Below the pieces are notes generated by a model, which worked only from the letters and a program-made list of their open reading frames with translations, was not told the origin of the DNA and searched no databases. A DNA stretch of 54,440 nt from Bacteroidota bacterium (GTDB lineage Bacteria; Bacteroidota; Ignavibacteria; Kryptoniales; JAKASW01), in NCBI GenBank assembly GCA_021789975.1, contig JAJYIT010000028.1, positions 1-54,440 of the forward strand. The letters are read 5' to 3'. The position numbers and the translations under genes were made by a program. Shown one piece after another: positions 1 through 32,742 of this stretch (position 1 is the first letter of the stretch; the number at the start of each line of letters is the position of its first letter).

Positions 1-159
1 GACATCCGAGCAAATCGTCGGCCCAAGAAGAGTGTGGTATACCATCGAATAGAATGTCTTCATATTTGCAGTAGATCCGCCTGACACCTGGACACGGTTT
101 AGCCAGGAATTCCAGATTCTACCCGCCTTTCGCACGGATTCGAATCCTTCAGAGAATCT
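1..159 (-). pseudogene. Fragment of a GH92 alpha-mannosidase, 5' part lost, runs off the left edge
   Basis: Reading the minus strand from about 159 to 1 gives a continuous frame containing IWNSWLNRVQVSGG and KTFYSMVYHTLLGPTICSDV. This aligns residue by residue with the middle of the intact GH92 enzyme at 7244-10090 (NWNTWLSRIEITGG, ATFYSMLYHALLFPSTCSDV). A TGA at 160-162 closes the frame upstream, so the roughly 250 residues that normally precede this part in GH92 are missing. A GTG at 133-135 is the only nearby start, and a protein beginning there would lack the N-terminal beta-sandwich. GH92 enzymes are calcium-dependent exo-alpha-mannosidases. The rest lies outside the window, so the state of the 3' half is unknown. 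An assembly error is the alternative to a decayed paralogue. Confidence 0.75.
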
Positions 160-16442: not shown

Positions 16443-19409
16443 TTACTGCGCAAAATTCCACCTTAGCCCAACATCAGCAGATAATCCGTAAGATTCATCA
16501 CTATTCGGGAAACCAGTCCCCTGGATAACTGTTATGTCGGGCTCGCCATTGAGATTATTTATGTCGAGATAGGCTTGAAGCCCATACCATGGAAGGTTCT
16601 GCATTGCTGAAAAATCCAACCGCGAGTATGTCGCTCTGCGCTGACGGAGGGAAGGCCAGAAGTTGTTCTGGCTGAAGACATTTTCCTGGTATATCCACGA
16701 AACTCTCGCAGAGAAACCTTTGTAGTCATATCCCACCGAGAGGTTCACGATGTTGCTTGGCTGATCTATCAGACGGTCCGTGTAGAAGGTATCGACGTAC
16801 ACAATAGTTGTGTGAGGATATCCCCCCTTTTTCTCGGTCAGCTGGAACGGATACTTAGCGCCCGAGAAGATGTGGGTGTAATTAACATTCAATACCAGTC
16901 CACTCAAGCCGAACGGCAAATACCAGAAATGAGTTTGCCAATTCGCCTCAATACCCCAGAGATTGACACGGTACGGATCGTTGATCACCAGGTTGCCAAG
17001 CGCATAACCTTTCATGTAATCGGGAAAGCCGTATTGGGAAGGGTTTGTGATATAGACCGCATCGCCATACGGAAATATCAAATCATCAATTTGTTTCAGA
17101 AACGGATCGATCGTTAACAATCCCAGGCTGTTGTTGTAAAACGACATGGCAATATCATAGTTCTGCGACCTGCCGGGCTTCAAGGCTTGATTATTCCAGT
17201 TGACAGATCTGACAAAAATGTCAATCGCCGGTGTGATTCTGTTGAAATCAGGGTATGTGAGAGTGTTTGTATATGCAAGCCTGATGTCAAACCAATCGAA
17301 CGGCTTGTACCGCAAGCTCACATCCGGCAGCCAGTAGCCGTGATACTGCGTTGAGGTTGAATCTGTGTATGGAAAACTAAATGGGAAAGTATTGTTGTCA
17401 TAGGCGGTCGGGACGTACGCTGCCGTGTACCGGGTCCGAAGGCCTTGATAACGAACGCCGGGTATGAGGGTAATCCGCGGACCGAAGTTTATGGTTGCCA
17501 TCACGTATGCAGCCTCCTCGTCTTCATATCCCAAATAGTTGCTTGCTATGTTTCCATATTCATCAGGAACGTACGCTCCGGATACTGCAGCGAAACTCTG
17601 CTGATTCTGCAGCGCCACAGTTGTGTTTACAATCTTCGAAAGGACACTGAGGTTCGTAGGGTAACCAGATAGCAGATAGTCGCCTCCGAGAAATTTACCG
17701 AAGCTACTCGATTGATCGAAGAACAGGGGCATAAGGAAAAGGTCGTCGCCATTCGGGTTCAGATTGTAAGGAGGCTGAGCCAACCAGGGATCAGCCGCTA
17801 TGATTTGCGAGCGAGCCGCATTTCCGCCAGGGATATTATACGTACCGCTGCCGCTCGAGTAAGTGTAAGACCTGAACGTATGTCGATAGGCTCCGCCAAA
17901 CTTGAGCGTCGCGGTTAGGAAGTCCGAAAAATTAAAGCTTCGTTGAAAGTCGATTGAACCCGATAGGTTCCTTTGCCGCGTAAAGCTAGTATTGGTACTG
18001 ATGGTAGTGAGAAATGTTTCGTTCAAATCCGTTTTTGCAGATGCCTGTTGAGCAATTGCCTCAGGACTCTGCGATAGGGGAAGACTTCCAATACCGGATG
18101 CGAGTTGGCTGAAGTTGACGCTCCAGTAACCGGGGTTCACGTTCTCTGAATAAGCATGTGATACCCTCGCATCCATGGTAAACGACAGAACATGTTGTTT
18201 ATAGTCCAGGATATTCATTATGACATTTGCAATCGGCGCAAAGTAGGCTCCAGAATAGTTTGTAGAATTGCCGCTCAAACCGTAGCTCTGGTTGAAAGTC
18301 TTCGTTATCTGCCTGCCCTGACTCAGGAAATTCATCAGATCCACTTTTCCGGAAGACCACCTGTAATCAAGTACCAGCGTTCCATCATAAAGATTCTTCT
18401 CGGTCGGCTTATAAGTTAGATTCAGACTGTTCATAATCACTGTCGGATGGGGATTATAGTAGTCGTAACTATTAAGCAACCCGTAACTCCCGCCAAATAT
18501 ATCAGCCGTAAGATTCTGTCTTTGAGTGAGAGCCTGTGCGAATACTCCGAACCGATTGTCAAAAAATCTCTTCTCTACCGATCCGGAGAATTCATAGTCG
18601 CCCAGGGTGTTCTGGAGGTTGTTGTACCCTCCCTGGGTTTCGAGTTGTATTATAGGAGCGCCGCTGGGAGTCGAACGGGCCTCTCTGATCTTAAAATTTA
18701 CAGTCCCTCCGAGTACTGCCGCGTCCATGTCCGGCGTGACCGTTTTAAAAAGCTCTATGCCGCTCAACATATAAGACGATATCATGCTCATATCGACCGA
18801 CCGATTTGAGCTTGAGTTCGAAGGCATCTCCACTCCATCGATCTCAATCTGGTTATACTTCGGCTCAAGCCCGCGGATGGCGACCTGCGATCCCTCGCCG
18901 TAGGACCTTACAAGAAAGACGCCCGGAAGTCTGCCGACCGACTCAGCAGCGTTTGCATCGGGCAACTCGTGTATGCGTGCGGCTGATACCACATTGACCA
19001 CGTTGTCTGAAGAGAGTTCCTGGTTGATAGCGGCGTTCTGACCGCTGGCTTGTGCGGTAACAGTCACTCCTTTACTCCGCACTCCGACTGCGATCAGTTT
19101 AACGTCAAGGGTGACGCTCTCTCCCTCGCCGACTCCGACCGGTACTTGCTTGAGATCGTAGCCGACGTAACTTACCTTCAATGTATCCTGCCCGGCAGGG
19201 GCATTCGGAATGGAGAAACGCCCATGAAGATCCGTCGAAGCCCCCACGCTTGTTCCCTTCACGAGGACGTTAGCGCCCGGAAGGGTTTGTCCTGTCTCAG
19301 AGTCTGTCACTTTTCCTGAAATGGTCCCCACCGCCTGACACCGTGCTGTCTGCACGCTGAAGAGGACACTCGTGAGAGCGAGCAACCAAAGATGTTTCAT
19401 TGGCCACAT
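16443..19409 (-). CDS. TonB-dependent outer-membrane receptor with carboxypeptidase-like N-terminal domain
   Basis: About 988 residues. After a signal peptide (LWLLALTSVLFSVQTARCQ) comes a CarboxypepD_reg-like domain (GTISGKVTDSETGQTLPGAN...STDLHGRFSIPNAPAG). The plug domain contains LPDANAAESVGRLPGVFLVR and VAIRGLEPKYNQIEIDGVEM, a pattern seen in the TIGR01782 (Xanthomonas/Caulobacter-type) receptors rather than SusC. A 22-strand barrel follows, ending GLSADVGLRWNFAQ. It takes up a large ligand, probably an oligosaccharide, across the outer membrane using TonB energy. ATG 19409 and ATG 19400 both lie just after a purine stretch; upstream codons to 19586 are not protein-like. No SusD lipoprotein lies next to it. 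It heads the transcript that continues into the beta-helix, GH79, DUF6259 and GH92 genes. Confidence 0.93.
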   Translation of the reverse strand: MWPMKHLWLLALTSVLFSVQTARCQAVGTISGKVTDSETGQTLPGANVLVKGTSVGASTDLHGRFSIPNAPAGQDTLKVSYVGYDLKQVPVGVGEGESVTLDVKLIAVGVRSKGVTVTAQASGQNAAINQELSSDNVVNVVSAARIHELPDANAAESVGRLPGVFLVRSYGEGSQVAIRGLEPKYNQIEIDGVEMPSNSSSNRSVDMSMISSYMLSGIELFKTVTPDMDAAVLGGTVNFKIREARSTPSGAPIIQLETQGGYNNLQNTLGDYEFSGSVEKRFFDNRFGVFAQALTQRQNLTADIFGGSYGLLNSYDYYNPHPTVIMNSLNLTYKPTEKNLYDGTLVLDYRWSSGKVDLMNFLSQGRQITKTFNQSYGLSGNSTNYSGAYFAPIANVIMNILDYKQHVLSFTMDARVSHAYSENVNPGYWSVNFSQLASGIGSLPLSQSPEAIAQQASAKTDLNETFLTTISTNTSFTRQRNLSGSIDFQRSFNFSDFLTATLKFGGAYRHTFRSYTYSSGSGTYNIPGGNAARSQIIAADPWLAQPPYNLNPNGDDLFLMPLFFDQSSSFGKFLGGDYLLSGYPTNLSVLSKIVNTTVALQNQQSFAAVSGAYVPDEYGNIASNYLGYEDEEAAYVMATINFGPRITLIPGVRYQGLRTRYTAAYVPTAYDNNTFPFSFPYTDSTSTQYHGYWLPDVSLRYKPFDWFDIRLAYTNTLTYPDFNRITPAIDIFVRSVNWNNQALKPGRSQNYDIAMSFYNNSLGLLTIDPFLKQIDDLIFPYGDAVYITNPSQYGFPDYMKGYALGNLVINDPYRVNLWGIEANWQTHFWYLPFGLSGLVLNVNYTHIFSGAKYPFQLTEKKGGYPHTTIVYVDTFYTDRLIDQPSNIVNLSVGYDYKGFSARVSWIYQENVFSQNNFWPSLRQRRATYSRLDFSAMQNLPWYGLQAYLDINNLNGEPDITVIQGTGFPNSDESYGLSADVGLRWNFAQ

Positions 19410-19864
19410 CTCTTTCTTTTTTTTGATTATTGTTGTTATACGAATGCATCTATTTGACAGAATTCGGTCGGAATATGAAACAGGAAATTTGAAATGGGCA
19501 ACTGCCACGCCCTGACTCAATAGCCAGATCTGTTCGTCGTTGAAGCTGACTTTGTGAACAGCAGAGAACAAAGGGTGAGGCCTCACCCCTTGTCGAGTTC
19601 AGACAGGTAACCATAATAGGAGGTAAATGGCGTCGGTGTTCGACATCGGCTTTGCACCTATCAAAGAACATCGATGTCGGGATGAGGTCCGTCACCCAAC
19701 ATCGACTTGCGACAAGCACGAACAGTACTGCTGCAACCGTATGTGATAGCAATTGCAGAGGTTAGTTCGTTTCATCTTTTTGTCCAACGTTAGTCAGTTT
19801 CTATAACACTCCTTTTATCTTCTAGCCGCGACCTATAGATCACAACCGGTTTCCTCACTCGCGG

Positions 19865-21252: not shown

Positions 21253-22554
21253 CTATTTTATCATCAAAATCTTTTGGACGCCCGCAAACGAACCTGCCTT
21301 CATCACAACCAGATACACACCGCTGGCGTACTTTGAGCCGCTGAATTGAACCTGGTAACGACCGGGAGGTTGAACCCCGTTCACCAGAGTTGCCACTTCG
21401 TTCCCCAAGATGTCGAAGACTTTGATCGTGATATGGGATGTCTTGGGTAAATCATATCGAACCACTGTCGCCGGTATCATATCGTCCACGCATTTGATAC
21501 CCACGCAGTTCACGGGTGAGCGTGGTGGCCGTGACATACGGAAGTTTCGGAATCAGATTGGAGTTGACGATGTTAAAACTTGGATTGCCGCCGGTCCAAT
21601 CATACCAGATAGAGAGAGGAATACCGTCATACAGGTTGAACAGTTGTATTCTCGCGAGGTAGTCCGCCTGTGTTTGAATTGATAACGAGCTGTTGCTATA
21701 TCCCCATTCGCTGCAGACAATCGGGATGCTCTTTCCCGCGGGCTCATATAGTGTGATCAGACTATCGAGCCAGTGGTAGCCACGATCATTTGGTGTCGAT
21801 GTTGGCGTGTAGTACGGAGCTGTCTCCGGGTAAAGGTCACCCCTGTAGGGATGAACGCTGACGCCGTCGAGATAATTGATCACACCGGAAGTCATGACCG
21901 AATCCAACAGATCTGACGGGAATCTGTCCGCTGCCGGTCCGATTATTGTTGCCTTGGGTCTGCCTGGCGTATTGCCTTACAAGCTGCAAGCGCCATAGTT
22001 GCATACTGTGCAGCACTCGGTGAAGGCTTCCAGAACGAACCATTGTTGGGTTCATTCCAGATCTCCCAGATGATATGATTCCCTTCGAAGTGCTTCACAG
22101 TTGCTGCGGCCCATCTGCAATATGCATCTATGTCCGTCGAGTCGGCGGGGCCCGTGTCGACACTTGCTCCCGGGCTCAAGTACAATGGATTGTTGTAATC
22201 TAATATCAGGATTGCACGCAGTCCGCGCTGATTGAGATTGGATATGAGTTGATCATAAGCCAACCAATCATAAGTTCCTCTGGCAGTCTCAATGGACGAC
22301 CAGATGCAATCCATCAGGATAAACTTGAAGCCGGCTGCCGCTATCATATCGAGATCTTGAGTATGGCCGGTCGTAAAGTGGATGTTGATTCCGACACCGC
22401 CGGGAATCACGGGCTGCGGAATTTCGGAAGAACCTGTTTGCGCAATGGATAAATTGCTGATGAGTGCAATGAGAGCAATTATCAAAATCGATCTCAGAAA
22501 AGCTCCCGCAATTGAATCCGTCAGGAAGATGACAGGTGAAGTTTTAATTGACAT
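21253..22554 (-). pseudogene. Broken clan GH-A glycosidase (cellulase/GH39-like) with T9SS tail
   Basis: Three consecutive reading-frame pieces belong to one ancestral gene. Piece 1 (21943-22554) has a signal peptide, then GVGINIHFTTGHTQDLDMIA and the acid/base motif IIWEIWNEPNNGSFWKP. Around 21945-21950 the frame shifts by one base (after RQADP; the next frame continues ATIIGPAADRFPSDLLDSVM). Piece 2 (21452 to about 21945) carries VSVHPYRGD and the nucleophile motif PIVCSEWGYS. Piece 3 (21253 to about 21480) is a T9SS tail lacking its NPFNP start (TVVRYDLPKTSHITIKVFDI, ILGNEVATLV, ending QKILMIK). The join between pieces 2 and 3 changes frame again and has lost the linker, so a deletion occurred there. 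Both catalytic Glu residues survive, but no intact protein can be made. A sequencing error could explain the first shift, not the second. Confidence 0.85.
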
Positions 22555-22698: not shown

Positions 22699-23769
22699 TT
22701 AAGAAAACGCCGCCGTAAAAAAGTCCATCCCCACCCCCATGCTCCCATCCATGTATTTCATCGCGTCCTCGGCTGAATAGCCTTCGTGAACTACCATAGA
22801 AAGTGCCATTGCCACGGCGCGTGGATCCCCGTCCTTCACAAAAGTCACGTTACGCCCGACCATAGCGCCGCGGACGTTCGGCGCCGCCTTCATTGCTTTT
22901 GCAAACGCGCTTATGGTATCTTTCGGGGAATCTTTCGCTGGACCGCCGAGCAGAAGTATCGGTAGAGTTGTCGCACGCGCTACCCTTTCAAAGTCCTCGT
23001 TGTATGAAATCTTGAGCCATGTCTTAAGAGACGTTTCTCCAAGCGCTGCCGCCGCTCCTACGTCTTTGACCAGGGTCTCGATGTCTGTCTTAAAGGAATG
23101 GTTCTTTTCCATGCTCTCTACCGTCACGGGCTCAATGAACGCATACAACCCGAGGCGGCTTAATTCCGTTACTGCATCCGCACATTCGCGGATGGTTAAG
23201 AGCGAACCATGATCCGATTGATCCAGGCGGTACATCATTTTCCCACCGTCGAGATTCATCTTTTTCAAGCTCTCCGCGGTGAAAGACGTGAAATTGTCTT
23301 CCAACTCGTAAACCGACCCCGCATGTCCGCCTCTGTTCATGCAACCTGTGATTACCTTACCGTCCGTGAAGCTTCTTCCGGTCTTCTGCTTATACAGATA
23401 GTCAACGATGAGAATATCCTCCACCATATCTGTGGTACCCATCACCCCATCGAATCGATCGTCTGTTAATACCCGAAGCACGCGTCCAAGATATTCGTAA
23501 CGATCCCCCATACCGATCGGATCGTTTCGCAGCAGCGTCACACGTCTCCCCGGATGGTCTGCGGCCAGAATTACGAGTTTACCGTCATTGGTAAGTCTGG
23601 TCCGGCGTTTTCTGCTTTGTGCGTGATCGATCACTGCCTCCGGTCGGTCTACACGGACATCGGTGATCTGGTAAAAGAGTTTCTTTGGAAAGAAATCTTC
23701 AAGATTGAATTTGTAGGATAACATATCCTTCCTGGAACTTTTCGTTTTGGTATCTGAGTACGTACTCAT
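22699..23769 (-). CDS. DhnA/LsrF-like class I aldolase (Cgl0159-type beta/alpha barrel)
   Basis: A 356-residue TIM-barrel protein. Motifs of class I (Schiff base) aldolases of the DhnA/FbaB/LsrF group are visible: LVILAADHPGRR (the early Asp), TWLKISYNEDFERV (candidate Schiff-base Lys), LPILLLGGPAKDSPKDTI (phosphate loop) and GAMVGRNVTFVKDGDPRAVA followed by MVVHEGYSAEDAM, as at the end of LsrF/DhnA proteins. Such enzymes cleave ketose phosphates to dihydroxyacetone phosphate and an aldehyde, or do related thiolytic cleavage. It lies 46 bases after the PFK-family kinase gene, so kinase and aldolase are probably successive steps. Substrate unknown: fructose-1,6-bisphosphate is the default, an unusual deoxy or substituted ketose phosphate is possible. 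An ATG at 23724 is an alternative start. Confidence 0.8.
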   Translation of the reverse strand: MSTYSDTKTKSSRKDMLSYKFNLEDFFPKKLFYQITDVRVDRPEAVIDHAQSRKRRTRLTNDGKLVILAADHPGRRVTLLRNDPIGMGDRYEYLGRVLRVLTDDRFDGVMGTTDMVEDILIVDYLYKQKTGRSFTDGKVITGCMNRGGHAGSVYELEDNFTSFTAESLKKMNLDGGKMMYRLDQSDHGSLLTIRECADAVTELSRLGLYAFIEPVTVESMEKNHSFKTDIETLVKDVGAAAALGETSLKTWLKISYNEDFERVARATTLPILLLGGPAKDSPKDTISAFAKAMKAAPNVRGAMVGRNVTFVKDGDPRAVAMALSMVVHEGYSAEDAMKYMDGSMGVGMDFFTAAFS

Positions 23770-23815
23770 TCGGTCCTAGCATCGAATCACCTACGGTCAA
23801 TATTCCATTTGTCGG

Positions 23816-25057
23816 TCAAAGTGCACCTGGAGCAATTCGGGTTGTTCTGCGAACGGATTCGCGCAATCTTCGTTTTGCGAGCGAAGGGAACAATCTGACA
23901 GGCCCACCGATTATCGGCAAACAGTAGTCGATGAAAGCTTCACTTGCAAAGTTGCCGCTGGCGTTCATAAATTCCGCCGGCAAGACTTTCTCGGTAACCG
24001 CGACGGCCTTTAGCGGAACAGTACCGACCGTGCAGCGATAATTCTTTGCGCGTTCCCGCAAGAGCGTCATCATCACGCCGCTCTCACCCGACAGTGCCGA
24101 ACGGATGCCTGACTTCCCCACAAGATATGCTTCTTTTTGATCGACTGCTGACGCATACTCTATCCCTGTCCTTGTCGCAAGACCCGGCTTTTCACTCCTT
24201 GCTCTTATCTTCAGCTTCTCGGAAATCTGCTCAGCAAGATATGCGGCAGCGCCGCCTGGCAATCCCCTGCCGAAACCGTCTTTCGATGCTTTGCCCCTGG
24301 TTCCGCCGAGATAATTGCCGGTCTCGTCCTTCAGCCCTTCGCTTACGACAACGACGACACGACCCAGCCTGTCGAACACATCCGAAACGTCCGACAAAAC
24401 ACGGTTTACGCTCATCGGTCTCTCAGGTACATAAATCAGATTCGGTGAGCTATCTTTGTCCAGTTGAGCTATCGAAGCAGCGGCAGCCAGCCAACCGGTA
24501 TTCCTTCCGAGGGTCTCAATAACGGAAACCGGGGGCGGCAACGTCTCCACATCAAGACCAATCTCTCTGGTAACCGACGCGACGTATCTCGCTGCGCTCC
24601 CGTACCCCGGGCTATGGTCGGTATAGGCCAGGTCATTGTCGATCGTCTTAGGGATGCCGATAGCAGCCAGCTCGTATCCGACCCGGCGTGCCGCCTGTTC
24701 CACTTTTTGCACGGTGTGCATCGAGCCATTACCACCTATGTAAAAGAAGTACCTGACCTTGTACTTCCTGAGCACGTCGACTATGCGGCCATAGTCCTCT
24801 TCAGACATCTTCCTGCGGCACGAACCCAAGGCTGCCCCTGGCCTTTGACAAATCTTTCTGAGCGTTGCAGGAGTTTCCTTTCCAAGATCGACAAGATCCT
24901 CTTCAATGATGCCGCTCACGCCGCGGAGTGCGCCGATCACCTTCCCGATTTTTCCCCTCCCGGCGCTCCTGACTTCTTCAACTATTCCAACCAGACTGCA
25001 GTTAATCACGGCAGTGGGACCGCCGCCCTGGGCGACAAGCAAGTTAGAAGACAACAT
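23816..25057 (-). CDS. PFK-family phosphofructokinase (ATP- or PPi-dependent)
   Basis: 413 residues from an ATG with AAGGAG upstream; a TTG seven codons earlier is also open. PFK-A family landmarks: LLVAQGGGPTAVINCSL (glycine-rich start), FYIGGNGSMHTVQ (donor site), IPKTIDNDL (catalytic Asp and the donor-specificity loop), HSPGYGSAARY and IETLGRNTGWLAA (sugar phosphate binding). PKTIDND carries the Lys typical of pyrophosphate-dependent enzymes, whereas GGNGS has Gly where PPi enzymes usually have Asp, so the phosphoryl donor is uncertain. The reaction is C1 phosphorylation of fructose-6-phosphate or a C6-substituted fructose analogue. It lies between the isomerase and the class I aldolase in one transcript, which makes it the middle step of a dedicated route. 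Confidence 0.88.
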   Translation of the reverse strand: MLSSNLLVAQGGGPTAVINCSLVGIVEEVRSAGRGKIGKVIGALRGVSGIIEEDLVDLGKETPATLRKICQRPGAALGSCRRKMSEEDYGRIVDVLRKYKVRYFFYIGGNGSMHTVQKVEQAARRVGYELAAIGIPKTIDNDLAYTDHSPGYGSAARYVASVTREIGLDVETLPPPVSVIETLGRNTGWLAAAASIAQLDKDSSPNLIYVPERPMSVNRVLSDVSDVFDRLGRVVVVVSEGLKDETGNYLGGTRGKASKDGFGRGLPGGAAAYLAEQISEKLKIRARSEKPGLATRTGIEYASAVDQKEAYLVGKSGIRSALSGESGVMMTLLRERAKNYRCTVGTVPLKAVAVTEKVLPAEFMNASGNFASEAFIDYCLPIIGGPVRLFPSLAKRRLRESVRRTTRIAPGAL

Positions 25058-25211
25058 CACGCCCCTCTCCTTTGACAAGTCTCTCTGACCAACGGCACAA
25101 GACTCTAAAACCTAAGTCCGAAACTGTGAACAAATCCATATGACCCAAGTCCAAAATGATAAATCGCTTCCATGAAATTTTGTATTTCAAATTTCGAGCA
25201 TTGTCTGGAAT

Positions 25212-26666
25212 TTAGAAATTCGGGTTTAGAATTTCCGAGCGAATCGGCCGTGGTCTTTGAAGATAATCTTGGTAACTTACCGGATTCATAATACCGATTC
25301 CAAGCCATGCGCAAAGTTCATTCACCTCCGTTGCGACGTCCTTATCGACATAGGCAAGATGGTGTGGGACAGCGTTGACGAGTAGTGTGTTCATGTAGTC
25401 CTCGCTCGAAGTATGCTGCCCGTTTATGCTCAGCTCGTTCATCCACGAGCTGCAGCCTTTATAGACGGGCGATTCCCTCTCGTAGAACCTGCCGCCTGCC
25501 AGGAATGCGCTTGCATCGTTCTCCATGAATCTAAGTGTTGTTACCTCTGTAGGTTTCATCCGCCCTTCGCGCACGGTCCCCATCTTGTCACGATTAAAAT
25601 GATTTGCCAGCCTGAACCCTGATTTGTCGAACCAGCTCTTCGGAATGTTCCCGCAGTGCCAGATGTAAATCGAGTCTGCTTTTTGATCCCATCCGGACAG
25701 ATCCATTAGTACCGTTTCGCGTCCACTCAGGTACCTTAGCGCCATCATGGATATTGCGCCGAGGACGTCAGTTTCCGTGGCTGCCACCATTTCAAATCCG
25801 CTTCCATTCTTTCGCTGATTAAGCCTTCCTATTGTAGAACATACCATCAATCCGACTTTCCCCGGCACTTCCGGCCAACATCGAAAGCTCACAGCAGACG
25901 CGCGATGTTTCGTGACAATCTTCTCAAATGCCACTTCCGCTCCCGCAGATTTTCTGACATCGGCTTCAATCGCGTCAACTCCATTGCTCTCTTTGATTAT
26001 TCCTGATACTCTATCGTCAAGATCGCCTTTCGCCATTGCCGCTTCGTATTCATTGTAGAATTCGTCGAGCTCAAGCTTCTCGACACTCACACCGAAAATC
26101 TTTTGAAGCTTCCCGGTATCATACTTCAGGTCGTGGTATCCGAATTCGGTATTGCCAATCTGCAGAATCCTCGAGCCCTGCAAATTCTTGATGGCAGTTA
26201 ATGCCTTGATCGTCGTGTCGAACCGTCTTCCGAACTGGGGCGACTCTGCGTCTCCGAACAACCACTTCACGGGCCGGTCGTATCCTGGTGCATATCTTCC
26301 GGCAATGCTGACATACAGGTTCGTGGCACAGAAGGAGTTCAGAGGAAGGGGACCACTCGACGTTGTCTCTTCAACCGCCCAAACGGCAAGTCTTGCGGAT
26401 GACGAGAAGAAAGGAAGGATCATGTCGCCGTCAGCGAACGAAGAATTCTGTATCACGACAAAGTCAACTTTCTTCTCCTCAAGCTCCTTTGCCACAGCTT
26501 GAGCATCGCTCAGCGTTTCCATGCCTTTATATACTGGTACAAAGTCAAACTTCAGCTCATTGCTCTTTTTTTCCAGGACTTCAATACTATGATTCAGCAC
26601 TGATTTCATGTCGCCGTGAAAAATCGGACGAAACGTTCCCGCCAATGCCACTTTCAGTTTTTCCAT
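25212..26666 (-). CDS. L-fucose/L-arabinose isomerase family protein
   Basis: 484 residues. The C-terminal half carries the family's metal and catalytic pattern: FEMVAATETDVLGAISMMAL (Glu/Asp), RYLSGRETVLMDLSGWD (Asp), YIWHCGNIPKSWF, and a final VNAVPHHLAYV (His). The N-terminal domain is a Rossmann-like aldose-binding part (LKVALAGTFRPIFHGD, VDFVVIQNSSFADGD). Members convert aldoses to ketoses with Mn2+. Beyond fucose and arabinose, relatives are known to act on other sugars, including sulfoquinovose, so substrate cannot be named. It lies 17 bases downstream of the GH2 gene and 150 bases upstream of the PFK-family gene. It is likely the first intracellular step on the sugar released by that glycosidase. 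An AAAGG ribosome site precedes the ATG. Confidence 0.87.
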   Translation of the reverse strand: MEKLKVALAGTFRPIFHGDMKSVLNHSIEVLEKKSNELKFDFVPVYKGMETLSDAQAVAKELEEKKVDFVVIQNSSFADGDMILPFFSSSARLAVWAVEETTSSGPLPLNSFCATNLYVSIAGRYAPGYDRPVKWLFGDAESPQFGRRFDTTIKALTAIKNLQGSRILQIGNTEFGYHDLKYDTGKLQKIFGVSVEKLELDEFYNEYEAAMAKGDLDDRVSGIIKESNGVDAIEADVRKSAGAEVAFEKIVTKHRASAVSFRCWPEVPGKVGLMVCSTIGRLNQRKNGSGFEMVAATETDVLGAISMMALRYLSGRETVLMDLSGWDQKADSIYIWHCGNIPKSWFDKSGFRLANHFNRDKMGTVREGRMKPTEVTTLRFMENDASAFLAGGRFYERESPVYKGCSSWMNELSINGQHTSSEDYMNTLLVNAVPHHLAYVDKDVATEVNELCAWLGIGIMNPVSYQDYLQRPRPIRSEILNPNF

Positions 26667-26683
26667 GATTTGCTAACCTTTAG

Positions 26684-29116
26684 TTAAATACTTACTTCTT
26701 TCCTTTGCGGCTTCGTCACGTGAACTCGAAGAGAACGGCTGCCCAGCGTCCGGTGATTCCCGGTCACCGCTATTACTCCCGTATGATCGGGCACCGATTT
26801 GACCCAGACCGCAGCGAGTCCACCGCTTTCTTCTAAATCGAATGGGTTGTCACCGACAAGGATTCCCGGACCGGTCAACTCAAACTTCACCTGTCCACGG
26901 CCATGTAGCCTCGGCTCACCGTACCTGTCAACCACTCCAAACACAATTCGGGTTGCGTCGGATCCATCGGCTATGATCTCCGATTCGTCTGCACGCATTT
27001 CAAACATGTCCTGAGATGGGTCTGAAGAATATGCCTTCATCAGTACTTTCTTATCACCGACATATCCATCAATTCTCAGCTCCGGGTAACCGGCGCCACT
27101 CAACTCGAGGTCGACGAAGAACGGCGGATATTTGAGGTTAGGAAAATTCCCCGAGTCCGGTTTCGGAGAAGCATGATTTTGGCCGTCGACATACACTTCG
27201 AGTCTCTCACAGTTTGAAAAAATCGCCACATGCTTGGCGGGACCATTAGGTGTCTTCGGATCGAAGCTCCAATAAAAGTTCGGTATGATAACGGGCGACA
27301 CGCCGGGATCCACCTGTGAGCGATAAAATGAGGCGCCCAACTTGGGAATGCGAAATATGTCCGCTACACCCGGATATTTTACATTTCTGTAAGAGTTCAC
27401 CAGGCTTCCATATTCGAATGCGCACCAGGCAATCACCCCGCAGATGCGCGGATCTTCTGCCGCCCGACTATGTGCCTGGGCATGCCAGATCGCCTGCTCT
27501 TCCTGAATATCCACGGGGCCGGCTCGCCGGTACTTCGCGCTGAAACCTGTTTTCGGGTCGGCATAATTGAACTGACCCACAGCTTCTGTGATCAAATAAG
27601 GAAAACCTTCGACGGGCTTTTCAATCCCGACACCGCCTTGACGGCCGGCGTGATAGTCATCGAACGCAAAGACATCTTCGTGCCAGTCTGTCTTCCAGGT
27701 TTTTCGCGAGCCGCCTGTCATGGTACCCGAACTCGGCCGGGAATCGTCGAGAGATTTTGCCAGTGCTCTCGTCTTTCTGTAAAGACCGACATCGTTGGCA
27801 GACTCATTAACTCTGGTCCCCCATATGATGACTGACGGATGATTTCTGTCGCGGATAATCATACTTCGCACGTCGCGGATGAGTTTATCTTTCCATGACT
27901 CATCGCCCAGATAACCCCAGCCTGGGACTTCCTCCCATGCCATCAGTCCAAGTTCATCACAGGTATCATAGAAGGCTTCGGTCTGCGGGTAATGTGAACA
28001 GCGTACCATGTTGCAATGGAATTCATGTCGGAGAATTTCCGCATCACGACGCATCGCCCTCGAAGGCATTGCGAATCCAACATAGGGGAACAGCTCATGC
28101 CTGTTGAGGCCGAAAATCTGCAGGCGTCTGCCGTTCAGGAAAAATCCGCCCAGCTCAAATTTTGCATCACGGAGACCCGTGCGGACGACGTAGTTGTGTA
28201 CCCTTACTCCTCCCAAAAGAAGAGTAACAACCACATCATAAAGGTGCGGGGCTTCGACATCCCATAGTCTGACGTTCCCAAGTTTTGAAAGAACCAGCTT
28301 GTGCTCCGACAATCCGGCCTTCTCAACGCTGATCTTCTCCTGATGTCTCGCGATAACCGTCCCGTTTTCGAGCAACTCCGCCCGCACAACTGCCTCTTTC
28401 GTCGGAAGATGAGCAGCGTCGATGGAACAGGTGATATCTATATGACGATTTGAATCGAGTACGTCGACCGGCTTTGCAAAGACGTCGCTGATAAAGACAT
28501 CCGGGACAACCTTGATCTGAGCTGATCGAACGATCCCGCCCGGTTCGAGGTAATCGATTCTCTTGGGCCCTTTAGGTGATCCTTCCGGCGGAACATTGCT
28601 CCATCGCGAATCGACCTTTACGGCAAGAACATTCCCCGTAGCTTTCACCATACCGGTTACTTCATATTCATATGGAAGATATCCGCCGAGATGTTCCGGT
28701 AAAAGACGGCCGTTCAATTCAGGTGTGATCCCGACCATTACGCCATCGAAGCGTAGAAACACGCGGCCGTCGAGCGCCTCAGTCGGCAGGTCGAAATGCT
28801 TTCGATAAATCCAGACATCCTCCCAATCGGACGGATTCCAGTTCTGCCAGGAGAGTTTTTTCACAGTGCTTGGAAGAGTCACCGGAATGAAGTTTCGATC
28901 GTCGAACTGCTGTGCCATCATATCGTGGCTGAACTTACCACCGAAGAGCCAGCCTTTGTCGAATGAGAATATCCGTGCTGCTGGCCCGCTGGGTAGAAGA
29001 GCCGTAATATTAGCAAAGCGGCGCCGGCCAACAAGCGAGGCTATGCCCGCTCCGGCAGAAGCGGCAGCGCAGAGATTTATGAATTGTCTTCGGCTGTACT
29101 CGGAATTTCTTTTCAA
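26684..29116 (-). CDS. GH2-family beta-glycosidase with Tat-type signal
   Basis: 810 residues beginning at a TTG. The N-terminus SRRQFINLCAAASAGAGIAS is a twin-arginine signal. GH2 architecture follows: sugar-binding jelly roll (about 45-210), immunoglobulin-like domain (about 215-330), then the TIM barrel with GLNRHELFPYVG, MVRCSHYPQTEAFYDTCDEL and GLMAWEEVPGWG. The acid/base sits in VIIWGTRVNESAN and the nucleophile in FPYLITEAVGQF. At the C-terminus are a DUF4982/Big-1-like beta domain and one more sandwich. Characterised GH2 enzymes include beta-galactosidases, beta-glucuronidases and beta-mannosidases; the exact sugar is not evident. Unlike the region 3 enzymes it has no T9SS tail and probably acts in the periplasm. 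Only 11 bases separate it from the ALDH gene upstream. Confidence 0.9.
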   Translation of the reverse strand: MKRNSEYSRRQFINLCAAASAGAGIASLVGRRRFANITALLPSGPAARIFSFDKGWLFGGKFSHDMMAQQFDDRNFIPVTLPSTVKKLSWQNWNPSDWEDVWIYRKHFDLPTEALDGRVFLRFDGVMVGITPELNGRLLPEHLGGYLPYEYEVTGMVKATGNVLAVKVDSRWSNVPPEGSPKGPKRIDYLEPGGIVRSAQIKVVPDVFISDVFAKPVDVLDSNRHIDITCSIDAAHLPTKEAVVRAELLENGTVIARHQEKISVEKAGLSEHKLVLSKLGNVRLWDVEAPHLYDVVVTLLLGGVRVHNYVVRTGLRDAKFELGGFFLNGRRLQIFGLNRHELFPYVGFAMPSRAMRRDAEILRHEFHCNMVRCSHYPQTEAFYDTCDELGLMAWEEVPGWGYLGDESWKDKLIRDVRSMIIRDRNHPSVIIWGTRVNESANDVGLYRKTRALAKSLDDSRPSSGTMTGGSRKTWKTDWHEDVFAFDDYHAGRQGGVGIEKPVEGFPYLITEAVGQFNYADPKTGFSAKYRRAGPVDIQEEQAIWHAQAHSRAAEDPRICGVIAWCAFEYGSLVNSYRNVKYPGVADIFRIPKLGASFYRSQVDPGVSPVIIPNFYWSFDPKTPNGPAKHVAIFSNCERLEVYVDGQNHASPKPDSGNFPNLKYPPFFVDLELSGAGYPELRIDGYVGDKKVLMKAYSSDPSQDMFEMRADESEIIADGSDATRIVFGVVDRYGEPRLHGRGQVKFELTGPGILVGDNPFDLEESGGLAAVWVKSVPDHTGVIAVTGNHRTLGSRSLRVHVTKPQRKEVSI

Positions 29117-29127
29117 GATAAACTAAA

Positions 29128-30597
29128 CTAAAGTTTGAATATTACCAGTTTAAGCTCTGTCATTTCTTCAATTGCGTACTTCAAACCTTCGCGCCCCATG
29201 CCGCTTTCCTTCACACCACCATAAGGCATATGATCAACCCGGTAGCTTGGGACATCGTTTATCAGCACGGCACCGGCATGAATTTCCCGGGCCGCTCTCA
29301 TCGCCTTGCTGAGATCATTGGTGTATACCCCCGCATTTATCCCGAATCGAGACAAATTCACAAGCCTTATCGCCTCATCGAATGTATCGTAACTGGTCAC
29401 ACCCACGAGCGGACCGAATACCTCCTCGCTAAACACTCTCATATCGGGTTTAACGTTGATCAAGACTGTCGCGGTGATGGCTTTTCCGTTTGTGCCTCCT
29501 CCGGTCGCTACCCGAGCGCCGCCTTTCCTGGCTTCATCAATCCAGCTCAGTATGCGAGTAACATCTTTCTGAGTGATGAGCGCTGAAATGTCTGTGGACT
29601 CATCAAAGGGGTCGCCGACTTTCAGTTTGGAGACCGCGCCAGTCAGCTTTTCAACAAAAACTTTCTCGATGTCACGGTGCACGAGAACTCTCTGAGTCGA
29701 TATACAAACCTGTCCTGAGTGAGCGTAACCGCCCTGAACACATCTTTTCACCGCTTCGTCCAACCTTAAATCATCGTCCACGATCACAGCGGAGTTGGAT
29801 CCTAGCTCGAACGTGAACCGTTTGAATCCGGCGACGTCGCGTATATGCTTTCCGACTTCCGGACTCCCGGTGAAGGAAACCATCACGACTCTCGGATCCT
29901 TGACAAGTTGTTCACCGACGACTGAACTCCCTGTTACAACGTTAAATACGCCCTTCGGAACTTCCGCCTTCTCGATCAACTCAGCGAGTCTAAGAGCGAT
30001 GATTGGTGTTGAGGAAGCAGGCTTAAGAACGACAGTATTTCCGGCCGCTATTGCGGGCGCCACTTTGTGTGCAACCAGATTAAGCGGAGCGTTGAAAGGT
30101 GAGATTGCCGCTATGACACCGATCGGTTCGCGGACTGTGTATGCCAGTCTTCCAGATCCCGCCGCGACCGCGTCGAGCGGGACGGTCTCTCCGTGTATCC
30201 TTTTCGCCTCCTCGGCCGCGAAAGTAAACGTGTCCGCTGCACGCGCGACTTCACCTCGTGATTCTCTTATAACCTTGCTGTTCTCGGATGTTATGGTTCT
30301 CGCAAGCTCTTCAGAATGTTCAATCAACAGTTCGGAAATCTTCTTCAGAAGTGTGTACCTTTGAAACGATGTCGTCTTCGAGAAGCTCTCAAAAGCTCTG
30401 GCGCCAGCATCTATGGCTGCGTCGACATCATTTTGTTCGGCGACTGGAACCCGGCCAACAAGCGAACCGTCGTACGGACTTCTGACATCAAAGGATTTTG
30501 CACCTGATACCCATTTCCCGTCTATGTACATTTCATATGACTTTTCATCCCCGTCTTTGCCGGCTTTCCTTTTCAAAGCGACATTTTCATCTGCCAT
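29128..30597 (-). CDS. Aldehyde dehydrogenase family protein (lactaldehyde / non-phosphorylating GAPDH-like)
   Basis: 489 residues, full length for the NAD(P)-dependent ALDH superfamily. Motifs: ISPFNAPLNLVAHKVAPAIA, the Lys of VVLKPASSTP, SFTGSPEVGKHI (Rossmann), FELGSNSAVIVDDD (general base Glu), YAHSGQVCISTQRV (catalytic Cys), and EVFGPLVGVTSYD. It resembles the branch holding lactaldehyde and glyceraldehyde-type dehydrogenases. The start has an exceptionally strong AGGAGGAG site and overlaps the 2-hydroxyacid dehydrogenase stop by 11 bases, so the two are translationally coupled. In this operon it would oxidise the aldehyde released by the class I aldolase to an acid. The precise substrate is inferred only. 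Confidence 0.92.
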   Translation of the reverse strand: MADENVALKRKAGKDGDEKSYEMYIDGKWVSGAKSFDVRSPYDGSLVGRVPVAEQNDVDAAIDAGARAFESFSKTTSFQRYTLLKKISELLIEHSEELARTITSENSKVIRESRGEVARAADTFTFAAEEAKRIHGETVPLDAVAAGSGRLAYTVREPIGVIAAISPFNAPLNLVAHKVAPAIAAGNTVVLKPASSTPIIALRLAELIEKAEVPKGVFNVVTGSSVVGEQLVKDPRVVMVSFTGSPEVGKHIRDVAGFKRFTFELGSNSAVIVDDDLRLDEAVKRCVQGGYAHSGQVCISTQRVLVHRDIEKVFVEKLTGAVSKLKVGDPFDESTDISALITQKDVTRILSWIDEARKGGARVATGGGTNGKAITATVLINVKPDMRVFSEEVFGPLVGVTSYDTFDEAIRLVNLSRFGINAGVYTNDLSKAMRAAREIHAGAVLINDVPSYRVDHMPYGGVKESGMGREGLKYAIEEMTELKLVIFKL

Positions 30598-31570
30598 CTG
30601 TTTCTCCTCCTAATCTTGGAAGTGCAAAGTTCACGTAGTTCAGGGCAGGGAGCCCCTGTAGAACCCTCCTTACATCGCCTGCCACTGTGTCAATCACTTT
30701 TTCCTGAGCTTCCACTGTCAGTCCGGCAATATGCGGAGTTAGAACAACGTTCATCATATGGTTCAGCTCGGATTCGGGCGGTGGTTCCTTTTCCCGGACA
30801 TCGAGTCCGGCTCCGGCTATCCTCCCCTCCTTCAATGCACGTATCAAATCCTCTTCTACTATAAGCTCTCCACGACCCGTGTTGATGATGACCGCGGCAT
30901 TCTTCATCAGGCTAAGCTTGGAGTAATCCATTAACCCGCGAGTTTCTTTTGTTAAAGGAAGATGACAGGACACCACATCTGAACAAGCAAGGACTTCATC
31001 GATGTTTTTCAGTTCAGCGCCAGACTCGGTTACGAAGTATTCGTAAGGTGAAAGAAACTTATCGTATGCTACTATCTTCATACCGAACGCCTTCGCACGA
31101 ACAGCCAGTCTTCCACCCACCCTTCCCAGACCCAGAATTCCAAGAGTCTTCCCATACAGTTCTCTGCCGATGAATGTTGATCTGTTCCAATCCCCTCTCA
31201 CTGTTGAAGTGTGGCTCGCCGGTATTTTGCGGAGCACTCCGAGTATCAAACCGAATGCGTGCTCCGCCGTCGAGATCGAGTTTTCATTCGGAGCATAACA
31301 TACCACGATTCCCAGCTTGCTCGCGGCTTCCACATCGATATTATCGTACCCGACTCCGGCACGGCCGATCACCCGCAGCGAGCCGGCTCTTTCCAGTACC
31401 TCACTATCTACCCTCGTTTGATTCCTTACGATCAGTGCCTTTGTCCCAATTATGCTTCTCCTAAGGGATTCACGATCCTTCCATAAATTCTCATCCTTGA
31501 AAACCTCATAAAGTGCACTGAGGTCTTTGATCGCATTTCCGTCTATGTCCTCGGCAATCACTATGTCCAT
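30587..31570 (-). CDS. D-isomer-specific 2-hydroxyacid dehydrogenase (phosphoglycerate dehydrogenase-like)
   Basis: 327 residues. Conserved parts: IGRAGVGYDNIDVEAASKLG, the NAD-binding TLGILGLGRVGGRLAVRAKA, INTGRGELIVEEDL (catalytic Arg), GLDVREKEPPPES (Glu) and VVLTPHIAGLT (His). These enzymes interconvert 2-hydroxy and 2-keto acids with NAD(H). It is shorter than SerA proteins with an ACT domain, so serine synthesis is not required. Located between the GntR regulator (11-base gap) and the ALDH (overlap), it fits the second oxidation of a three-carbon 2-hydroxy acid such as lactate, glycerate or a substituted analogue. Relatives include (S)-sulfolactate dehydrogenase SlcC; that identity is not proven here. 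Confidence 0.9.
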   Translation of the reverse strand: MDIVIAEDIDGNAIKDLSALYEVFKDENLWKDRESLRRSIIGTKALIVRNQTRVDSEVLERAGSLRVIGRAGVGYDNIDVEAASKLGIVVCYAPNENSISTAEHAFGLILGVLRKIPASHTSTVRGDWNRSTFIGRELYGKTLGILGLGRVGGRLAVRAKAFGMKIVAYDKFLSPYEYFVTESGAELKNIDEVLACSDVVSCHLPLTKETRGLMDYSKLSLMKNAAVIINTGRGELIVEEDLIRALKEGRIAGAGLDVREKEPPPESELNHMMNVVLTPHIAGLTVEAQEKVIDTVAGDVRRVLQGLPALNYVNFALPRLGGETDGR

Positions 31571-31581
31571 TTACATTTGTC

Positions 31582-32301
31582 CTATAAAGAGAAAGAACTC
31601 CTGACGAAAGATTCAAACTTCGCATCAAGGTCAGATTGAGGCAAAAGCAATTCTTTGGTCTTGACAAGATGGATGTGCATTGCCTGTTCCGCCCTATCCG
31701 GATCGTGATCGCTCAACGCAGCTATGATTTCTTTATGTTCCGCGATTGTTGTATTCATCCTTCCCGGCTTATGTCCCGATATGAATCTGATTCTGTGGAT
31801 TTGCCCCAGCAGATTATTCAATAGCCTTCTGGCTCTTGCATTACCGGCCGCCACCATAATGAGATCATGAAGCCTGGTATCTGCTTCAAATGAGATAATG
31901 CTGTCCTGCTTCTCGATTGCGACGTCGAGTTGTCTTCCTATCTCTCTAAGCTGTTCCATCTGTTCCTCAGTTATCTTCGAAGCAGCAGATCTTGCCGCAG
32001 CACTCTCGAGACATATCCTGAGATCGAGTACCTCTTCTATGTCTCTCGGTGTGAGTTCAGAGACATAGACTCCAACATTCGGGACAATCTTTACTAAGTC
32101 TTCTTGTTCCAAGCGTCTCAGCATCTCCCTGATCGGGGTCCTGCTGATACCGTATTTCTGTGCCAGTTCATCTTCCCTTACTGTCTGTCCAGGCTTTAGA
32201 TGCTGGGAAATGATGTCGGCCCTTAGGGATTGAAATATCTTGTCCTTAATTCTGAGACGTTCCGACCCCGTCGCAGCCTGTTTCTTTTCTTTCGATTTCA
32301 T
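31582..32301 (-). CDS. GntR-family regulator, FCD (FadR/VanR-like) type
   Basis: 239 residues. The N-terminal winged helix contains QTVREDELAQKYGISRTPIR and EMLRRLEQEDLV. The C-terminal FCD domain is all-helical with the metal/effector-binding pattern (DLRICLESAAARSA, EADTRLHDLIMVAAGNAR, TTIAEHKEIIAAL, where Asp and His ligands occur). FCD regulators usually sense carboxylic acids or sugar acids and repress the operon they head. It is the first gene of the catabolic operon running down to the aldolase. A TTGTATACAA-type palindrome lies about 430 bases upstream, and a related one lies upstream of the TonB-receptor operon. An AAAGGG site precedes the ATG. Confidence 0.92.
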   Translation of the reverse strand: MKSKEKKQAATGSERLRIKDKIFQSLRADIISQHLKPGQTVREDELAQKYGISRTPIREMLRRLEQEDLVKIVPNVGVYVSELTPRDIEEVLDLRICLESAAARSAASKITEEQMEQLREIGRQLDVAIEKQDSIISFEADTRLHDLIMVAAGNARARRLLNNLLGQIHRIRFISGHKPGRMNTTIAEHKEIIAALSDHDPDRAEQAMHIHLVKTKELLLPQSDLDAKFESFVRSSFSL

Positions 32302-32730: not shown

Positions 32731-32742
32731 ATTGTATACAAT
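32731..32742. promoter_or_regulatory. ATTGTATACAAT palindrome, candidate GntR/FCD operator
   Basis: A perfect 12-base palindrome of the form recognised by many FadR/VanR-type GntR proteins. The flanks CAATACA (left) and CAATGTAA (right) recur around the TGTATTATACA site at 19991-20001. The distance to the gntR start is about 430 bases. Confidence 0.5.

Follow-up and report, generated by a model that had tools for sequence, protein, structure and literature searches.

An operon in the Bacteroidota genome GCA_021789975.1 (Ignavibacteria; Kryptoniales; JAKASW01) probably encodes an Embden-Meyerhof-Parnas (EMP)-type sulfoglycolytic pathway coupled in tandem to the desulfonation of sulfolactate. 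The stretch of DNA that we analyzed, hereafter the window, comprises positions 1 to 54,440 of contig JAJYIT010000028.1 (54,440 nucleotides), and the operon spans 22699-32301 on its minus strand. An earlier reading made from the sequence alone (the sequence-only reading) had described seven same-strand genes here with short gaps or overlaps, and this layout is confirmed: neighboring open reading frames (ORFs) among the seven overlap by at most 11 bases or lie at most 133 bases apart. Pfam and NCBIfam identify them as a GntR-FCD regulator, a D-2-hydroxyacid dehydrogenase, an aldehyde dehydrogenase (ALDH), a glycoside hydrolase family 2 (GH2) glycosidase, an isomerase, a phosphofructokinase (PFK), and a Cgl0159-type aldolase; the GH2, PFK-family, ALDH, dehydrogenase, and GntR assignments were already those of the sequence-only reading. 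From gene content, synteny, co-occurrence across genomes, the clade to which SuyB belongs, and the loss of 6-phosphate contacts in the kinase, we infer every reaction of the pathway as well as its sugar, which would be sulfoquinovose or its C4 epimer sulfofucose.

The genes supply a candidate for each step from sulfosugar to pyruvate and sulfite. The GH2 enzyme would free a 6-deoxy-6-sulfo-hexose, which a mutarotase (from a second copy of the operon) and the isomerase would convert to a sulfo-ketose. The PFK-A kinase would phosphorylate this ketose at C1, and the Cgl0159-type aldolase would split the resulting phosphate into dihydroxyacetone phosphate (DHAP) and S-sulfolactaldehyde. ALDH would oxidize the aldehyde to S-sulfolactate, SlcC-like and ComC-like (Ldh_2) dehydrogenases would carry S-sulfolactate through sulfopyruvate to R-sulfolactate, and SuyAB would release pyruvate and sulfite. 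The same series from S-sulfolactate to pyruvate and sulfite has been described, and sulfoquinovose and sulfofucose yield the same S-sulfolactaldehyde, since its stereocenter originates at C5 (PMC12421959).

The source genome (G000; 4.70 Mb in 85 contigs) carries the second operon copy on contig C25, with an isomerase 82-83% identical to that of the window and its own GntR regulator (77-80%). The operon cluster, whose isomerase-PFK-aldolase trio the sequence-only reading had singled out for a check of conservation, recurs in ten copies across nine genomes and four genera (two in G000, the others in G002, G003, G005, G010, G012, G243, G473, and G491), so the grouping of these genes is more than chance. 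The system is nevertheless rare and patchy, since a profile search with the isomerase (E 1e-40) matched only 9 of 391 genomes in the class. The hydroxyacid dehydrogenase, isomerase, PFK, and aldolase are clustered together in eight copies, a count that includes G012 and G491, in which the aldolase is cut by a contig end. The G243 operon is split across two contigs, and the contig bearing the G002 operon ends after the isomerase. GH2 is present in 6 and ALDH in 7 of the ten copies. Of the 9 copies that contain the interval from PFK to aldolase, 8 have a GalM-type aldose-1-epimerase (mutarotase) in it; the C25 copy does, and the window copy has none. This mutarotase belongs to the system, as do suyAB and comC.

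The isomerase (25212-26666, minus strand) is predicted from NCBIfam, profile comparison, and alignment to be an aldose-ketose isomerase distantly related to SftI/SqvD and FucI. The sequence-only reading had called it a fucose/arabinose-type isomerase. Pfam returned no FucI match for the window protein, only a borderline match to SseB (21.4 bits; cut-off, 21), and the sole NCBIfam match is to the sulfoquinovose isomerase SftI (NF048012; E 5e-41, 141 bits; cut-off, 700). However, a comparison with Escherichia coli FucI by hhalign (probability 44%, E 0.0002) pairs E298 and D322 with E337 and D361, which we take to be two of the metal ligands of FucI. Across the eleven isomerase sequences aligned, residues E298, D322, H435, and H436 do not vary, and SqvD retains the FucI metal ligands (PMC9594981).

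The kinase (23816-25078, minus strand; PF00365, 175 bits) belongs to the PFK-A family and, from residue alignment, is predicted to phosphorylate C1 of a 6-sulfo rather than a 6-phospho ketose. Nine operon kinases were compared with E. coli PfkA (eight whole and that of G243 as two fragments, with G002 left out); all nine have proline at R162 and leucine at H249 and keep R243. We take these three PfkA residues to be those that hold the 6-phosphate of fructose-6-phosphate. Judged by these positions, the 6-phosphate is probably not a ligand of the operon kinase, and the loss of contacts says only this. Seven operon kinases keep R72, T125, D127, D129, R171, E222, and R252 (PfkA numbering). The source genome has two further PFKs outside the operons, on contigs C73 and C79; the former keeps R162, R243, and H249, and the latter keeps R162 and has isoleucine and tyrosine at the other two positions. 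ATP is the likely phosphoryl donor of the operon kinase, because its G104 occurs with K124, presumably the combination of the ATP-dependent trypanosome enzymes. The sequence-only reading considered it unusual to find a PFK-family kinase with this isomerase family, an impression that does not hold: sulfo-EMP2 pairs SqvD with SqiK (PMC9594981).

The aldolase (22699-23769, minus strand), which the sequence-only reading had taken for DhnA/LsrF-like, is nearer to Cgl0159 (PF22649, 227 bits; cut-off, 27), and its family, structure match, alignment, and distribution lead us to predict a class I enzyme releasing DHAP and sulfolactaldehyde. Its best solved relative is 3fok (Cgl0159; E 2e-46), filed as uncharacterized. 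A weaker match, to MJ0400 (E 8e-5), puts K253 of the aldolase at the lysine of a KTSY motif, and the equivalent lysine is kept in the eleven members complete at that position, one truncated row apart. Cgl0159-type aldolases have a DHAP-releasing role in inositol breakdown, and a PF22649 member adjoins iolC in Pseudarthrobacter, a neighborhood that fits a DHAP-releasing enzyme. The aldolases of myo-inositol clusters share with that of the operon the Pfam family and the conserved lysine, but the operon context is isomerase-PFK rather than iolC. An inositol route was considered for the operon and rejected, the aldolases of G154, G165, and the Pseudarthrobacter iolC locus being only 33-38% identical to the operon's. 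A search of 30 genomes (E 1e-10) found the aldolase in nine, exactly those with the isomerase (0 of the 21 others), with two aldolases each in G002 and G000. The aldolases of G215 and G246 have no isomerase-PFK pair nearby.

ALDH (29128-30597, minus strand; PF00171) is a predicted sulfolactaldehyde dehydrogenase whose best NCBIfam model is lactaldehyde dehydrogenase, at 518 bits and below the cut-off of 650. The D-2-hydroxyacid dehydrogenase (30587-31570, minus strand; PF02826/PF00389) scores best against phosphoglycerate dehydrogenase (335 bits, below the cut-off of 454) and is 42% identical to the corresponding protein of the Rhodococcus koreensis suyAB-Ldh locus. SlcC belongs to the D-2-hydroxyacid dehydrogenase family, and we predict the window protein to be an SlcC-like (S)-sulfolactate dehydrogenase. 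The sequence-only reading had these two enzymes oxidize the aldolase product to a 2-keto acid. Both do follow the aldolase, but the dehydrogenase more likely acts as one member of a pair that inverts sulfolactate than as the final enzyme of the pathway. The ComC-like Ldh_2 dehydrogenase is represented in the window, by sequence match, as the C-terminal 88 residues of a gene that runs off the contig end (54177-54440, minus strand). The window and contig C18 each terminate in a ComC C-terminus, the two being 97% identical over 209 bases, and contig C60 of the same genome ends with suyA and the 37 N-terminal residues of suyB (90-92% identity to those of G005). These matching ends and the cut suyB suggest that a duplicated module probably broke the assembly.

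SuyB of G005 matches no SuyB model in NCBIfam, its best model being galactarate dehydratase (155 bits; cut-off, 731). It shares 59-64% identity with 13 plasmid-borne proteins; for the remaining 27 listed among 316 records, identity does not exceed 41%. The suy loci of five of those 13 matches were retrieved. That of C. pinatubonensis has the order hpsN-hpsO-MFS-dehydrogenase-suyA-suyB, which agrees with the published hpsRNOUPsuyAB (PMC11382572); a sulfate exporter-type gene is present in Paracoccus versutus; ALDH, a hydroxyacid dehydrogenase, and Ldh are present in R. koreensis; Rhodobacteraceae SC52 has Ldh and an exporter-type gene; and the Sinorhizobium mexicanum suyB region is without annotation. 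In a midpoint-rooted tree of 15 SuyB rows, which omits the G000 fragment, G491, and G003 and G012 (the latter two 94-95% identical to G005), six SuyBs from operon genomes and four from suy loci form one group with support of 100/99, and Variovorax and Prevotella lie on long branches. For SuyA, identity between the G000 and G005 proteins and those of the same four suy loci is 42-49% (42% for C. pinatubonensis). As a separate observation, genes for GntR, a hydroxyacid dehydrogenase, and Ldh accompany a UxaA-type pair (40% to SuyB) in Variovorax sp. SRS16 (L127 736-6288); the pair may be a lyase for a different hydroxyacid.

Across genomes, a SuyB sharing at least 80% identity with that of G005 accompanies the isomerase in 8 of 9 genomes and is absent from all 21 that lack an operon-type isomerase (Fisher 1.5e-6), with G000 counted on its 37-residue N terminus at a contig end only. 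This count joins a first set of 14 genomes, with SuyB in all 7 isomerase genomes and none of the 7 others, to a second set of 16 comprising G473 (SuyB 81% identical to G005's), G491, and 14 genomes without an operon-type isomerase that were hand-picked, not random. Among these 14 controls, the sole SuyB match was in G285, at 30% identity. A distant SftI-family homologue occurs in 9 of the 21 controls (G008, G031, G036, G045, G054, G118, G153, G201, and G285), that of G153 being 22% identical to the window isomerase. SuyA adjoins SuyB in all eight SuyB-positive genomes. ComC was present in 7 of 7 isomerase genomes examined (partial in G000 and G005, in two pieces in G003); the ComC of G473 is partial and 62.5% identical to that of G010, and isomerase-negative G004 has a 36% match. 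The two halves of the proposed pathway are also physically linked in some genomes. In G005, a sodium symporter gene, suyA, suyB, and the start of comC come after the operon aldolase, all on one strand; one of the two G002 aldolases (73% identical to the window's) adjoins suyA-suyB-comC; and in G243, whose sugar operon lacks ALDH, an ALDH gene precedes comC-suyA-suyB. In G473 (L139:4997-9985), comC-suyA-suyB is followed by genes that read by eye as glyceraldehyde-3-phosphate dehydrogenase and phosphoglycerate kinase.

The GntR/FCD transcriptional regulator (31582-32301, minus strand; assigned by Pfam) offers a further connection: in G010 and G012, suyA-suyB-comC is followed by a GntR gene whose product shares 63-67% identity with that of the operon. 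The palindrome TTGTATACAA (32732-32741, unstranded), 431 bases before gntR, is a candidate operator. A word count over 20 upstream regions had pointed to TATACAA; TTGTATACAA is the sole match in the window at up to one mismatch (0.73 expected). Exact copies stand upstream of 8 of the 10 operon copies (the window, G002, G003, G010, G012, G243, G473, and G491), 86 to 558 bases from the first gene, and it was absent from all other loci among the 140 searched. The G005 and C25 copies have no TTGTATACAA within two mismatches at the usual distance.

Several observations weigh against tandem sulfoglycolysis and desulfonation. The isomerase scores 141 bits against an SftI cut-off of 700, suyAB lies outside the window, and a contig end truncates suyB in G000. 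Although the core operon is present in G491, the only SuyB homologue there is 38% identical. The genomes compared are relatives of one another, and 14 of the 21 controls had been chosen by hand. We know of no GH2 sulfoquinovosidase. GH31 gave 40 matches, spread over 8 of 9 genomes, and all 8 of these proteins that were examined lack a YihQ-type signature: W304 and Y508 occur in none of them, and two have arginine at 301; we take these three positions to be the sulfoquinovosidase signature of YihQ. AlphaFold models of the isomerase and kinase were poor (four sequences each; mean pLDDT, 41.5 and 44.5). Finally, the kinase exceeds the cut-off of a pyrophosphate-dependent PFK (PPi-PFK) subfamily model (446 bits versus 273), and its closest solved relatives are annotated PPi-PFKs. 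This last point, together with retention of R243, favors ordinary glycolysis genes adjoining a separate sugar module, the simple alternative of the sequence-only reading. Against it, the equivalents of R162 and H249 are proline and leucine in all nine operon kinases, and the R162 position is lysine in 3k2q and 3hno (alignment as read). Since the kinase contacts are lost, other PFKs (one of them canonical) are present outside the operons, and the aldolase tracks the isomerase in the same 9 of 30 genomes, as one cluster over four genera, we consider ordinary glycolysis very improbable.

A substrate without sulfur is harder to dismiss, though still unlikely. The operon might degrade a 6-deoxyhexose (D-quinovose or D-fucose), with aldolase, ALDH, and D-2-hydroxyacid dehydrogenase leading from D-lactaldehyde through D-lactate to pyruvate, while suyAB-comC would serve sulfolactate from elsewhere. 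The operon alone would be sufficient for such a route, the best ALDH model is indeed lactaldehyde dehydrogenase, loss of the 6-phosphate contacts fits any 6-deoxy sugar, and a bona fide SuyB is missing from G491 even though the core operon is there. Yet the co-occurrence of SuyB (8/9 versus 0/21), the G002 aldolase beside suyA, and the G243 ALDH-comC-suyAB arrangement would be left unexplained, and the isomerase's sole NCBIfam match is a sulfoquinovose isomerase. Deoxysugars without a sulfonate, which the sequence-only reading had allowed, are accordingly the less likely substrates. It is also conceivable, if improbable, that the sulfosugar chemistry is as we propose but that most sulfolactate leaves the cell or is used as sulfopyruvate, with SuyAB-ComC acting on imported sulfolactate or dihydroxypropanesulfonate (DHPS). 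The absence of SuyB from G491 would fit, as would the location of suyB on a different contig from the isomerase in 7 of the 8 SuyB-positive genomes (all but G005). The physical linkage in G005, the aldolase-suyA linkage in G002, and the similar GntR beside suyA-suyB-comC in G010 and G012 argue instead for a single system. We therefore retain the proposal of the sequence-only reading in outline: an isomerase-kinase-aldolase route of sulfo-EMP logic acting on a sugar that is not 6-phosphorylated, then aldehyde oxidation and a hydroxyacid dehydrogenase, is supported as a conserved unit.

The enzyme set differs from those of published sulfo-EMP and sulfo-EMP2 in its Cgl0159-type class I aldolase and its isomerase far below the SftI cut-off. 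Sulfo-EMP2 (SqvD, SqiK, and SqiA; PMC9594981) similarly combines a FucI-like isomerase, a PF00365 PFK-A kinase, a DHAP-releasing aldolase, and, in aerobes, aldehyde oxidation; the kinase likeness is at the level of the PF00365 family, with the SqiK sequence itself outside the comparison. It differs in that SqiA is a class II aldolase (PF01116, with no match among ten window proteins scanned), in its occurrence in Firmicutes rather than Bacteroidota, and in that the system described here has a GalM-type mutarotase and the window operon has no GH31. Swaps of single enzymes are known, such as SqiA for YihT in Vibrio (PMC13372026). Sulfo-EMP of E. coli (YihS, YihV, and YihT) shares the same intermediates and an aldose-1-epimerase-type mutarotase, but the isomerase, kinase, and aldolase families all differ (PF07221, PF00294, and PF01791 gave no match among the ten window proteins scanned), and E. 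coli reduces sulfolactaldehyde to DHPS, whereas oxidation is predicted here. The tandem sulfofucolytic-sulfolactate sulfolyase pathway of Paracoccus wurundjeri (PMC12421959) likewise joins a sulfosugar route to SlcC/ComC-SuyAB mineralization in one bacterium, with an Entner-Doudoroff-type rather than an EMP-type upper route. According to a 2026 review, sulfoglycolysis occurs in Proteobacteria, Actinobacteria, and Firmicutes as well as in some Thermotogae, Chloroflexi, and Spirochaetes, with sulfo-EMP2 in Firmicutes; the word stem "bacteroid" is absent from its main text. Our literature search found no sulfoglycolytic Bacteroidota and no Cgl0159 aldolase in sulfoglycolysis, although subscription journals were mostly outside its coverage and absence is unproven.

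An isomerase (27%) adjoins a PFK (38%; histidine and threonine at R162 and H249) in "Candidatus Chlorohelix allophototropha," a pairing that counts in favor of the sulfosugar reading. The plasmid stretch concerned (L095 425-14987) also holds sulfite reductase, siroheme, ALDH, 2-hydroxyacid dehydrogenase, and sugar ABC transporter genes and no annotated aldolase; it may be a sulfosugar cluster with sulfite assimilation in a phototroph. A Deinococcus peraridilitoris locus (30% isomerase, PfkB, tagatose-bisphosphate aldolase, and GH31) was considered as a sulfoquinovose cluster and set aside, and we do not use it as evidence because its GH31 lacks the YihQ contacts.

The operon GH2 (26684-29116, minus strand; Pfam) has a twin-arginine-like start by eye and is predicted to be an exported beta-glycosidase that releases the sugar. 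Two motifs, which we take to be the catalytic Glu sites, are kept in 7 of 7 homologues aligned. On the G005 operon contig (L080:3639-6513), a sulfatase lies beside a radical-SAM/SPASM protein near a TonB receptor, and this pair adjoins a GH2 59.5% identical to the operon's. Large GH2 proteins with F5/8 and exo-beta-glucosaminidase-type Ig domains occur near the C25 copy (L010:1384-4953) and next to the G002 aldolase-suyAB (L087:8991-12641). Possible uptake could involve a TonB-dependent receptor (16443-19586, minus strand), homologues of which directly follow the aldolase in the C25 copy, G003, G010, and G243. A sodium:solute symporter (SSF; 300-1808, minus strand) resembles, at the superfamily level only, the one between aldolase and suyA in G005. 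A GH5-like gene (21452-22554, minus strand) is split into two ORFs (203 and 151 amino acids) and looks decayed; its G002 homologue (L086:15378-17819) has 813 amino acids and a type IX sorting domain.

The window also encodes, by domain match, a GH92 alpha-mannosidase with a type IX sorting domain (7244-10090, minus strand) and a DUF6259 protein (10097-12307, minus strand) with family members near suyA on C60 and in G010. DUF6259 proteins (that of the window, L082:5856-8075, and L083:3595-5802) recur beside alpha-mannosidases and suy genes and are a candidate glycosidase family for a sulfosugar linkage. The alpha-mannosidases near suyA on C60 are GH125 and GH47. No more than 4 kb separates GH92 from suyB in G003, G010, G012, G243, and, at one of its two loci, G002; of these, G003, G010, and G012 are close relatives. 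In G005 the distance is 12 kb, and no GH92 was seen on the 10-kb contig of G473. GH92 is not specific to the system, with 0-14 matches in isomerase-positive genomes (none in G491) and 0-10 in seven isomerase-negative genus members. GH92 fragments sit at contig ends (window 1-147, minus strand; C60 19124-19243), and such repeats may break assembly. GH18 includes enzymes acting on the N-glycan core, and a GH18 protein with Ig domains is encoded on C18 (L124:6443-9007), under 1 kb away from the second fragment of ComC.

Vinogradov 2012 is reportedly the reference for the N-glycan of Thermoplasma acidophilum, which carries sulfofucose (as described elsewhere, in PMC12421959). The N-glycan of Sulfolobus acidocaldarius is (Glc-beta1-4-sulfoquinovose-beta1-3)(Man)(Man)GlcNAc-GlcNAc (PMC8993221, PMC2948927), and the presence of this sugar next to mannose is likewise inferred in a study of a Sulfolobus virus (PMC12042106). 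GH2 together with alpha-mannosidases would suit a beta-linked sulfosugar that neighbors mannose, and the GH2 and nearby alpha-mannosidases suggest, without proving, archaeal N-glycans as the source. Plant or algal sulfolipid is another possible source, and our literature search gave no habitat for these metagenome-assembled genomes. We can offer only a tentative, and rather doubtful, scenario in which these Bacteroidota live partly on sulfosugar-bearing archaeal glycoproteins: GH92, GH125, GH47, and a GH2 acting as beta-sulfoquinovosidase or beta-sulfofucosidase would strip N-glycans, and the operon with SlcC-ComC-SuyAB would mineralize the sulfosugar through a third, non-orthologous set of EMP enzymes.

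If tandem sulfoglycolysis and desulfonation is the correct reading, it would add a Bacteroidota lineage to sulfoglycolysis and a third aldolase family for the same cleavage. These bacteria would be among the few cells taking a sulfosugar to pyruvate and sulfite, complete mineralization in one cell having been called unusual (PMC12421959). It would also give a testable function to part of an aldolase family whose solved member, 3fok, is filed as uncharacterized, and would make the operon GH2 a candidate beta-specific sulfosugar glycosidase.

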